Positions 23,826 to 56,080 of a stretch of 64,000 nt of DNA are shown piece by piece. Within the stretch, counting starts at the first letter, position 1; each line of letters opens with the position of its first letter. The notes below the pieces were generated by a model that worked only from the letters and a program-made list of their open reading frames with translations, searched no databases and was not told the origin of the DNA. The translations under genes were made by a program, and so were the position numbers. Source of the DNA: an uncultured Flavobacteriales bacterium (GTDB lineage Bacteria > Bacteroidota > Bacteroidia > Flavobacteriales_G > Salibacteraceae); NCBI GenBank assembly GCA_905479105.1, contig CAJQLE010000002.1, forward strand, positions 1-64,000, in the 5' to 3' direction.

Positions 23826-24764
23826 TCAACCCTTCTCCTTTTGCTGGTAGAAGTTATTTCTAAAAAGAAGCTTGTAGAAATGATCCATTACAAAGACATG
23901 CGGCAAAGTGATGGAAGAAATAATGATCAATAAAGCATATCCGTAGGGAATAATAAGAAGGTTGAAGTAAATCAGTGCGAATACGAGACCAAGCCCTAAA
24001 AATGATAAAAGTGAGAAAGGCGCCAGCAACTTCAAGAAGGAAAGTACTGAAGAAACTTCCTTCTCCGCTCGAAGAAAACGAAACTCCTCGCCAAGTACTT
24101 TAAATGAGTGTAGAATAATGAAATATAAGGTGAATCCAATGATCAGAGGTGTTAGATAAAATGCCGCTAGAATCAAAAGAAAAATAAGGCACTCCATAAA
24201 GAATGAGCTGACTGTGAAGGCTCTGTTGTGCAATAGCCAAAATAATGATCCAAAGGTTAGAATTGAAGAAATACCGAATGTCAGCACAAGACTGTTTAAT
24301 TGATGAATTGGACTAAACAAAGCAAATTCAGGGTAATCATTCATCCATGAATGAATTTCACTTAGATTGAATAAAATAAGTGCAGAAAGAATGGATACTC
24401 CCCACAGTAAATATGAAAATTGGTGAATTAACTTCTGTCGTTTGAAATAGTGTGAGAATTGAGATTGGCCAAAATGATAAGCAGAAATACCCAAAAAAAG
24501 CACATACGCCAACAATGGAAAGGACATCCAAAGGATTACATTAAAGCCTATGATGAGGAGATAAACTAAAATAAAATATTGTTTTTGGTGGGGAGCATCT
24601 CTGCCGTGGAGCACATTATCGATGGCCCCGTGTGGAATTCCAATCATGAAAATGAAAGGAGCGCAAAAGAGAAACTGGGTAGAAAAAGAAATCTCACCAA
24701 ATACGGACAATATTGGCATTAACAATAGCACAGATGCTATGAATATGAAGATTTCCTTAGTCAT
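23826..24764 (-). CDS. blh: Brp/Blh beta-carotene 15,15'-dioxygenase
   Basis: The enzyme cleaves beta-carotene into two retinals, the chromophore of the adjacent rhodopsin. It is an integral membrane protein of 312 residues with about eight hydrophobic segments. The iron-binding histidine motifs of the family are visible: PHGAIDNVLHG near residue 45, SAYHFGQSQFSHYF near 105, IILHSFKVLGEE near 215 and ITLPHVFVMDHFY near 290. The ATG at 24764 directly follows the T-run of the rhodopsin terminator, so this mRNA probably depends on read-through and has no room for a ribosome site upstream. Confidence 0.92.
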   Translation of the reverse strand: MTKEIFIFIASVLLLMPILSVFGEISFSTQFLFCAPFIFMIGIPHGAIDNVLHGRDAPHQKQYFILVYLLIIGFNVILWMSFPLLAYVLFLGISAYHFGQSQFSHYFKRQKLIHQFSYLLWGVSILSALILFNLSEIHSWMNDYPEFALFSPIHQLNSLVLTFGISSILTFGSLFWLLHNRAFTVSSFFMECLIFLLILAAFYLTPLIIGFTLYFIILHSFKVLGEEFRFLRAEKEVSSVLSFLKLLAPFSLLSFLGLGLVFALIYFNLLIIPYGYALLIIISSITLPHVFVMDHFYKLLFRNNFYQQKEKG

Positions 24765-24798
24765 AAAAAAAAGGCCGCGCTGTTCCCAACGCGGCCTT
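24765..24798 (-). terminator. Terminator between rhodopsin and blh
   Basis: On the minus strand a 9-bp GC-rich stem (AAGGCCGCG/CGCGGCCTT) with a 10-nt loop is followed by eight T (24772-24765). The hairpin starts about ten nt after the rhodopsin stop. The T tract runs directly into the blh ATG. It should lower blh expression relative to the opsin. Confidence 0.9.
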
Positions 24799-24808
24799 CT
24801 TAAAAATA

Positions 24809-25555
24809 TTAGGCAGTTTGTACTTTCTTGCTAGAAGTAATAGCAATATTGTAAACCACTAATCCAAAACCGATTTTGTTGATCGCGTCAGCAATATTGT
24901 AGAACAAGTCTACATTCTCTGATCCCCATCCGAAAGCAGTGTTCAACCAACCACCAGGCATACACATGTAACCTATTGGGTAAATCGCCCATCCTACCAA
25001 GACAAACCAGGCTAGAATGCGCACACCGCGCTTCACCACTTCATTATCTGATGCAGCAGCCAATTGCGCTACCTCACCAAACCATGCTGTGTAGAGTATG
25101 TAGAGATATCCTAATGTTGAAATGAAACCCCATAATACAGAATGGGTAGAATCTCCACCTTCTGGATTAAATGCTTCACCAATGTATCCTGCTACTAACA
25201 TCCAAACAGACGCTATGATCAATTTCCAAAGAAGCGACAATTTTGCGCCTGCAGCTTTAGTCAATAAGTAGAATTCCACACACATTAAAGGAACAGTAAG
25301 CGTCCAATCAATGTAACGAAGAGAAGTTGGATTCTCTCCAGTCGCCACATAATAATCGCGCATATAGTAGTAATGCACTGCGGCAATAAAAGTAATCAGT
25401 CCAGAAACTAAGAGGGAGGTTTTCCATTTGTCGTCCACTCTGCTCCTTTCGAAGAAAAAGAAAATTGCAGCTGCTAACATAGCCATGTAGCCCGTAAAAA
25501 AGGTGAACGCAACAGCGTCATCTTTAGGAATAATTAAAACATCAAGTAAATTCAT
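24809..25555 (-). CDS. Proteorhodopsin, green-type light-driven proton pump
   Basis: This 248-residue seven-helix opsin pumps protons outward in light, using retinal made by Blh. The DTE motif of proton pumps is complete: D83, T87, E94 in RYIDWTLTVPLMCVEFYLL. The spectral position is M91, as in green-absorbing flavobacterial proteins. The Schiff-base lysine is K227 (NIADAINKIGFG), and H61 pairs with the counterion. Helix E carries G143 in SVLWGFISTL, aligned by eye with F152 of the SAR86 protein. A Gly there opens the retinal pocket to antenna carotenoids in related pumps. There is no cleaved signal peptide. Confidence 0.97.
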   Translation of the reverse strand: MNLLDVLIIPKDDAVAFTFFTGYMAMLAAAIFFFFERSRVDDKWKTSLLVSGLITFIAAVHYYYMRDYYVATGENPTSLRYIDWTLTVPLMCVEFYLLTKAAGAKLSLLWKLIIASVWMLVAGYIGEAFNPEGGDSTHSVLWGFISTLGYLYILYTAWFGEVAQLAAASDNEVVKRGVRILAWFVLVGWAIYPIGYMCMPGGWLNTAFGWGSENVDLFYNIADAINKIGFGLVVYNIAITSSKKVQTA

Positions 25556-26210: not shown

Positions 26211-27089
26211 ATGACAGCAATTCTATACTACGCTTCACTTCCGCTGATGTATCTGTTTTCAATTCTTCCATTCTGGATGATGCATGGTTTATCCAATTTT
26301 GTGTTCGTTTTACTTTATCATGTTTTTGGCTACCGCAGAAAAGTCGTGATGATGAACTTAAGCAATTCCTTTCCTGAAAAGTCAGAAAGTGAGTTGAAAG
26401 AAATCGAAGAAAAGTTCTATCGCTACTTCTGCGATTTGATTTTAGAGACCATTAAGAGCTTGACGATTTCTGAGTCCGAATTGAAGAAACGATTATCATT
26501 TGAAGACTTGACCGTATTCAAAAAGTACCACGCTCAAAATCAGAGCATCATTATTGTAATGGGCCATTGGGGTAATTGGGAATTGGGTGGAGCACGTTTT
26601 GCGCTGGAACCACTTCATCGTTTGTTTGTCATTTACCACCCTCTCAAAAACAAACAATACGATGGGTTAATCTATCGTATGAGAACTCGATTTGGTAATG
26701 GCCTTTATGCCATGAAAGATAGCATCCGAGGAATGATAAAGGACCGAGACTTACTCACAGCAACTGCTTTTATTGCGGATCAAACCCCTTCGGCTAAAAA
26801 TGCTTATTGGATGGAGTTTCTTAACCAAGATACCCCCGTATTTACTGGTACTGGCAAGATTGCCATCAAAATGAATTATCCGGTTGTTTATGTTGGCATC
26901 AAACGCGTCAGACGCGGCTATTATAGTATTTCGTTAGAAGATCTCGTGCCAGAGCCAACTAAGATGACAGCAGATGAGATATTATTTACCTTTACCAAAC
27001 GTTTGGAGAAGGACATCAAATCTCAACCTGAGACTTGGTTATGGACACACAAACGATGGAAGCACAAACGAGAAAAACAAGAGATTTAA
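26211..27089 (+). CDS. LpxL/HtrB-family lysophospholipid (lipid A) acyltransferase
   Basis: From the ATG at 26211 (MTAILYYASLPLMYLFSILP) the product is 292 residues. An upstream ATG at 26115 adds 32 residues that do not resemble the family. One N-terminal transmembrane helix anchors it to the inner membrane. The HX4E acyltransferase motif is GHWGNWELGG, and the later FIADQTPSAKNAYWMEFLNQ resembles the family. It likely adds a fatty acyl chain to lipid A or an ornithine/phospholipid precursor. It overlaps or abuts the damaged desaturase, probably its operon partner. Confidence 0.85.
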   Translation: MTAILYYASLPLMYLFSILPFWMMHGLSNFVFVLLYHVFGYRRKVVMMNLSNSFPEKSESELKEIEEKFYRYFCDLILETIKSLTISESELKKRLSFEDLTVFKKYHAQNQSIIIVMGHWGNWELGGARFALEPLHRLFVIYHPLKNKQYDGLIYRMRTRFGNGLYAMKDSIRGMIKDRDLLTATAFIADQTPSAKNAYWMEFLNQDTPVFTGTGKIAIKMNYPVVYVGIKRVRRGYYSISLEDLVPEPTKMTADEILFTFTKRLEKDIKSQPETWLWTHKRWKHKREKQEI

Positions 27090-27114
27090 GCGTATCGAAC
27101 GGAAAGAGAAAGAA

Positions 27115-27871
27115 TTGATTTTGGCTACAAAAAAGTATGCCTCCGAGGATAGATTCAAGAACTGGGTATTCACCATTTCGACACTTTTGTTTTTAGGCCT
27201 TTCAATGATTGGTGCGCTTTATTCATTTCCTTTAGCCATCCGGATTATTTGTTCCCTTTTGACAGGACTGTTGCTCCTGCGAATGTTCATGCTGTATCAT
27301 GATTATCTGCATAAGGCAATCTTGAAACGAAGCTTTATAGCCAAGACCATATTCACTCTTTATGGTCTTTACACGCTGAACCCACCGAGTATTTGGAAAC
27401 GCTCACATGACTATCATCACAAGCACAACTCTAAACTTCATACTTCCAATATCGGATCATTTCCAGTATTAACGCGCAAAGCCTTTCTGGATTTAAGTAA
27501 ACGTGAGCGCAGAAACTACCTCTTCATAAGACACCCATTCACCATTGCCGCAGGTTACATTTTCGCATTTACTTGGGGCATGTGTATGTTATCGCTCATT
27601 CGTAATCCAACGAAACATTGGGATTCAGCCTTCTAGTTATATGAAGATGAATCCAATTATGAAATGGTTTACAGGTAGCATTGGTTATCATCATATTCAC
27701 CACATCAATGCGCTTATCCCCTTCTATCGGTTAAAGGAAGTTCATGAAGCCTTCCCCGAATTTCAATCAGCGAAAACAACTTCGCTTAACCCTAAAGAAA
27801 TGTGGCGTTGCCTAGAAGTTAAAGTATGGGATGCAGATCAAAACCGCATGCTTAAATTGAGTGAGCTGTAA
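27115..27871 (+). pseudogene. Fatty-acid desaturase gene with internal deletion and frameshift
   Basis: The first part (27115-27636) has two of the three membrane-desaturase histidine boxes: HDYLHK and HDYHHKHNSK. It reads to NPTKHWDSAF and then a TAG at 27634. The second part (in another frame, to 27871) resumes with PSSYMKMNPIMKWFTGSIGY followed by the third box HHIHH, then NALIPFYRLKE. From memory of intact homologues, 50-60 residues separate these, so a segment has been lost and the frame changed. No ATG starts the first part in frame; TTG codons at 27115 and 27121 are candidates. The function is probably lost. Confidence 0.85.
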
Positions 27872-55350: not shown

Positions 55351-55392
55351 TGCGGCTTTGCTTAATCATCTATCTCTTACATTCGAAGCTGA

Positions 55393-55489
55393 CTTATCAA
55401 GAAAGACTGAGGGATATGGCCCGATGAAGTCTTAGCAACCCGGTTGGACGGGTGCTAATTCCAACTCCAAGAAATTGGAGATAGATGAG
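55393..55489 (+). promoter_or_regulatory. SAM-I (S-box) riboswitch aptamer
   Basis: The sequence has the four-way S-box layout. P1 is CTTATC (55393-55398) with GATGAG (55484-55489). P2 is AAGACT/AGTCTT, with the conserved GAGGGA and GGCCCGATGAAG segments. P3 is ACCCG/CGGGT, with a conserved GCAACC before it. P4 is CTCCAA-GAAA-TTGGAG. S-boxes bind S-adenosylmethionine and repress methionine genes. The gene downstream begins as methionine synthase, which confirms the call. No terminator T-run follows, so control may be at translation. Confidence 0.95.
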
Positions 55490-55517
55490 CAAAGAAAGAT
55501 TCCACAAACTTTCTTGA
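55490..55517 (+). promoter_or_regulatory. Possible expression-platform hairpin of the SAM riboswitch
   Basis: AAGAAAG (55492-55498) can pair with CTTTCTT (55509-55515). The same CTTTCTTGA (55509-55517) is also perfectly complementary over 9 nt to TCAAGAAAG (55397-55405), which overlaps aptamer helices P1 and P2. The two pairings exclude each other, as expected for a switch. There is no poly-T after it. This is a structural inference from base pairing only. Confidence 0.45.
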
Positions 55518-55539
55518 AGGTCAACAAAGCAATAAAGCA

Positions 55540-56080
55540 ATGACCATAGACGATCTCGCAAAACAGCGAATTTTAATACTTGATGGAGCCATGGGCACCA
55601 TGATTCAGCGGCATAAGCTCACTGAAGACGATTTCAGAAATGAAGCTCTAAAATCGTATACGACATCTCTCAAAGGCAATAATGACCTTCTTTCCATAAC
55701 TCGTCCTAATATCATTCTAGATATTCACAGGGCATATTTTGAAGCTGGAGCTGATATTGTTGAAACCAACACATTTAGCAGCACTTCCATAGCGCAATCT
55801 GATTATGGACTAGAAGCTTTTGCCTATCAATTAAATGTTGAGTCAGCCAAACTCGCCAAACAAGCAGCTAAAGAATATTCAACATCAGAAAAGCCTCGCT
55901 TTGTTGCCGGATCTATAGGGCCAACAAATCGCACTGCATCATTGAGTCCAGATGTTAATCGGCCGGGATTTAGAGCAATCACAAGAATTGATCGAAGCTG
56001 GAGTTCCCGTTCTTCATTATTATTCCATGGGCAAAGCAAAGAGCATCCAAGAAGTAGCTGAAGAGGTATTTGGTAGTTAA
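55540..56080 (+). pseudogene. metH-metF deletion remnant under SAM riboswitch control
   Basis: The first about 146 codons are the start of the homocysteine-binding domain of cobalamin-dependent methionine synthase ([54 protein letters not shown]). At 55975-55984 the frame changes to 27 codons reading [20 protein letters not shown] then [12 protein letters not shown]. This is the C-terminus of methylenetetrahydrofolate reductase, MetF, ending at 56080. In the metH frame the protein stops at 56061 after 173 residues. The zinc cysteines, cobalamin domains and nearly all of metF are missing, so neither enzyme can work. The riboswitch is intact. Confidence 0.9.

Follow-up and report, generated by a model that had tools for sequence, protein, structure and literature searches.

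The window analyzed here, a stretch of 64,000 nucleotides from an uncultured Flavobacteriales bacterium, contains at positions 27115-27871 a gene that is orthologous to a membrane fatty-acid desaturase of Bacteroidota and carries one lesion. We consider it highly likely that this membrane di-iron desaturase gene, co-transcribed with a neighboring LpxL-like gene, was recently inactivated by one real deletion of 200 nt that probably arose by slippage. We infer the co-transcription, the slippage, the loss of activity and the fixation of the loss in the population; the desaturase locus itself is an ordinary recent pseudogene by internal deletion.

The front and back of one PF00487 fatty-acid desaturase lie in two open frames that overlap, 26974-27636 and 27545-27871. 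The 5' remnant (27115-27636, plus strand) extends for 173 codons from a TTG to an out-of-frame TAG at 27634-27636 and is approximately 86-87% identical to the intact gene of locus L007 (86% over residues 1-176). It includes His box 1, HDYLH (27298-27312, plus strand), which corresponds to the invariant H62 and H66 of a 29-row alignment, and His box 2, HDYHHKHN (27406-27429, plus strand). The 3' remnant (27632-27871, plus strand) lies in a different frame, which ends at TAA 27869-27871, and contains the C-terminal part (81% identical to L007 residues 236-318) with His box 3, HHIHH (27689-27703, plus strand). Unlike a functional PF00487 desaturase, the window therefore does not present three His boxes in a single reading frame. 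The PF00487 match is likewise split into a front piece of 28.4 bits (profile positions 5-106), which falls below the cut-off of 29.7 bits, and a piece of 38.3 bits in another frame (198-241). No whole-domain score above the cut-off was obtained for the window, in contrast to intact L007, whose match reached 93.9 bits and spanned positions 7-240 of 253.

L007, the nearest intact relative, derives from a Flavobacteriales metagenome-assembled genome and is the same record as contig C85 of G012, a member of the window's genus. Among 12 genus mates, the desaturase is whole in three (G004, G010 and G012), cut by contig ends in two (G006 and G008) and lacking in seven, with a weak 35% match in G011 scored as lacking. 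Intact orthologues are thus present in near relatives, where the partner gene is orthologous too. The original prediction had also counted an absent start codon as damage, which we rejected as a sign of decay: intact L007 has the same upstream ...RIERKEKE-LILATK region with no ATG, which indicates that the missing ATG is not a lesion and predates the deletion. Many other relatives start with MLEGK or MREGK. The TTG at 27115 is probably the start of both the window gene and the L007 gene.

Extent and content of the deletion

Alignment of the window DNA to intact L007, L008 and L009 revealed a single gap of 200 nt between HWDSA and SYMKMN, which amounts to a loss of 66 2/3 codons. Since three does not divide 200, the frame is shifted after the deletion. 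The predicted internal deletion between the second and third His boxes was therefore borne out, while its proposed size of 50-60 residues proved somewhat low. In the window, 286 nt (95.33 codons) separate box 2 from box 3, as opposed to 162 residues in 61 of 62 distinct loci from relatives and 161 in the remaining one, which agrees with the earlier description of boxes in different frames and too close together. Counted by row, 67 of the 68 rows that bear the motif have a spacing of 162 codons, and the remaining one has 161. For this count, 24 loci (the window's own and L070-L088) were excluded beforehand and 80 loci were examined, 12 of which have no exact box-2 motif; the 68 rows comprise the 62 loci and six whole-genome rows, which are mostly second copies of the same genes. 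No intact homologue without the segment was present among the 68 rows.

The lost stretch contains 15 of the 58 columns that are invariant in an alignment of 29 intact proteins, drawn from 62 found: H178, P201, G209, Y211-Y214, Q216-P220, W230, Y232 and A235. Among these residues is the QHNFP motif, which is invariant in intact relatives and deleted from the window, and whose H217 may be an iron ligand by analogy with the EHYG-type motif of AlkB. An AlphaFold2 model of the protein encoded at L007:5001-5957 (mean pLDDT 88.4, pTM 0.88) places two long helices, 169-189 and 191-217, in the lost stretch, with the second ending at QHNFP. The window thus lacks the two further helices and the QHNFP motif that lie between boxes 2 and 3 of a functional PF00487 desaturase. 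A protein search of the 7-contig assembly, which is 99.85% complete, did not find the missing stretch elsewhere in the genome and matched only the two halves.

The ends of the lost stretch in L007, CTCAGCCTTC and TTCAGTCATC, are exactly 200 nt apart and alike at 7 of 10 bases, and the window retains one TTCAGCCTTC. This 10-base stretch at the junction (27624-27633, plus strand) matches the two ends of the 200 nt of L007 at 9 and 8 of its 10 bases. The best placements of the junction in the DNA alignment fall between 27623 and 27635, an ambiguity caused by the 10-base repeat. Of 750 pairs at this offset in the gene, 5 are as alike, a rarity that is overstated because the alignment itself selects the best junction and that we regard as supportive only. 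The 200 nt were probably removed by replication slippage at these short imperfect direct repeats, although recombination between them would fit as well. Translation in the shifted frame would then stop at TAG 27634-27636, and the predicted product would be an N-terminal piece of 173 residues with boxes 1 and 2, which should not form a di-iron site since box 3 is absent from it, as are the histidine of QHNFP and two membrane helices. From the frame shift, the 15 invariant residues lost and the two modeled helices lost, the proposed inactivation appears correct. Ordinary internal-deletion pseudogenes show the same single frame-breaking deletion at a short repeat within otherwise good coding sequence, and nothing distinguishes the window's from them.

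As in PF00487, intact L007 has three His boxes. Its best NCBIfam match is NF052548, the equivalog Delta(5) desaturase DesA, at 169.5 bits over nearly the full length, which is below the cut-off of 500 bits and indicates that L007 is not a member of that equivalog. The fold of the L007 model resembles those of AlkB (8f6t, 8sbb; Z 14.5, rmsd 4.5 over 271) and stearoyl-CoA desaturase SCD1 (4ymk, 6wf2; Z 8.6, rmsd 4.5 over 196), at only 10-12% identity, and the fold does not imply a substrate. These matches came from the fold comparison; a profile search against the sequences of solved structures gave no match at E 0.01. Among solved structures, the model comes closest to a chain of the chloroplast FtsHi motor complex of Chlamydomonas (8xks_K, Z 28.1), presumably, from the title of the entry, a plastid desaturase held in that complex.

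Age of the loss and constraint on the remnants

Neither desaturase remnant contains a further stop or frame shift. Comparison of the window with L007 by the NG86 method gave dN/dS values of 0.056 for the 5' part and 0.043 for the 3' part, which are only rough because dS is close to saturation (1.5 for the front and 2.6 for the back). The flanking parts are thus still constrained, with dN/dS near 0.05, which suggests a recent loss; the original view had been that good flanking sequence points to recent or artefactual damage, and its recency is upheld. By these sequence measures, the deletion is young relative to the split from L007. Some relaxation is possible, because the numbers of lineage-specific residue changes in the window and L007 depend on the outgroup (13 versus 11 with L008, and 15 versus 3 with L009). 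The same count with L008 for the neighboring LpxL-like protein gave 8 changes in the window and 6 in L007.

A long-neutral gene with old remnants is scarcely credible to us. Such a history would fit the departure of the window at 12 of the 116 sites conserved at 80% or more, compared with 8 for L007, and the N186S change at a nearly invariant site. However, by rough arithmetic the approximately 0.7 dS on the window branch would predict hundreds of non-synonymous changes, when the excess seen is 2 to 12, and neither the dN/dS near 0.05 nor the freedom from additional stops and frame shifts accords with long neutrality.

Constraint on two open remnants with no further lesions could also mean that a short or split desaturase is still active, through frameshifting or as two polypeptides. 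We consider this highly improbable, since none of the 68 rows has the spacing of the window and a protein read across the junction would still be without the two helices and the 15 invariant residues. The lack of the short spacing in every relative among these rows was the ground for rejecting both programmed frameshifting and a short variant that still works.

Gene loss in the window's genus

A second internally deleted gene, metH, lies in the same window. At 55540-56061, only MetH profile positions 2-142 remain, and the remnant runs into what appear, by comparison with the MetF tail of G011, to be the last 32 residues of MetF in another frame. The SAM riboswitch (SAM-I) ahead of the remnant is kept (55391-55491; whole region 55391-56080). 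No other MetH, MetF or MetE was found in the window's genome, where a weak 18-bit match to the MetH profile within a 1149-codon frame was taken as a different protein. Remnants of metH, metF or both are placed differently in the window's genome (G000) and in three genus mates: G012 retains the SAM riboswitch, followed by MetH 1-173 and by pieces matching MetH 1079-1181; G011 has MetH 1142-1181 and MetF 194-285; and G001 has MetF 137-283 only. It appears that methionine synthesis is being lost repeatedly within the genus, and the desaturase and metH together represent two internal deletions in the window that point to ongoing gene loss.

These data bear on whether the desaturase deletion arose as an artefact during assembly or sequencing, or reflects a minority variant in the consensus, such that the organism has an intact gene. 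The window comes from a single assembly, the remnants are still under constraint, and two internally deleted genes within one 64-kb window would be in keeping with a fault of this kind. On the other hand, a 10-base imperfect repeat is much shorter than what would mislead an ordinary assembler, and the assembly, with 7 contigs and 99.85% completeness, does not contain the missing stretch at any other place. Furthermore, the metH and metF remnants of the genus mates, themselves known from assemblies, have other end points; because assembly faults would hardly produce differing end points in separate assemblies, real gene erosion is likelier. We therefore judge an artefact unlikely and favor a real deletion.

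A search for a second desaturase revealed four more PF00487 proteins in the window's genome, and a protein search found none of the same subfamily as the window desaturase. Two of the four (367-369 residues) are, judging by motifs, presumably front-end desaturase-like, and one is presumably AlkB-like on the same basis. The last is a 250-residue open frame with NF049918 as its best NCBIfam match, below the cut-off. The presence of these four proteins suggests that the effect of the loss on lipids may be limited.

Elsewhere in the window, a rhodopsin gene (PF01036) lies on the minus strand at 23826-25555 beside a gene for a Brp/Blh-type beta-carotene dioxygenase (PF15461; TIGR03753 above cut-off). 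The two probably encode a light-driven pump with its retinal supply.

The LpxL-like partner

The upstream partner of the desaturase is an intact LpxL-like acyltransferase gene (26211-27089, plus strand; PF03279, 140 bits), whose frame is open from 26115 and whose L007 homologue starts at the place matching 26211. Its protein is 93% identical to the partner in L007. In the 62 loci (L007-L068), which were fetched using the desaturase as sole bait, an LpxL-like gene precedes the desaturase in 54, so that the adjacency is conserved across Bacteroidota: it lies immediately upstream, no more than 150 nt away, in 50, and no more than about 350 nt away in 4. Two of the 8 loci without such a gene, L049 and L063, have just 7 and 614 nt of upstream sequence. 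Within the genus, G004, G010 and G012, and no other mates, carry an LpxL-like protein that shares 74% or more identity with the window's, and the partners fall on one side of a weakly supported branch (50/0) that separates them from 14 other LpxL-like proteins of the genus.

Conservation of this pair suggests a desaturase that works on the acyl chains used by the acyltransferase, or that supplies them. A more speculative proposal, which we hold only tentatively and think somewhat doubtful, is that the LpxL-like acyltransferase and the desaturase form a conserved two-gene Bacteroidota module by which lipid A, or some other acylated lipid of the outer membrane, receives an unsaturated acyl chain. 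On this view, the window's species retains the acyltransferase but has only just lost its desaturase, and the same lineage is losing its methionine synthase operon as well. If the module exists, the window's species would be a natural knock-out of one step. Though just another recent pseudogene in itself, the locus offers a natural test of the conserved acyltransferase-desaturase pair. The sources covered by a literature search yielded no report of an LpxL-desaturase pair or of metH loss in Flavobacteriales, which is not proof of absence from print.

The window's genome also encodes a second LpxL-like acyltransferase (G000:C2:158461-159321, L115), which is 37% identical to the window's and falls in a clade of genus mates lacking the desaturase.
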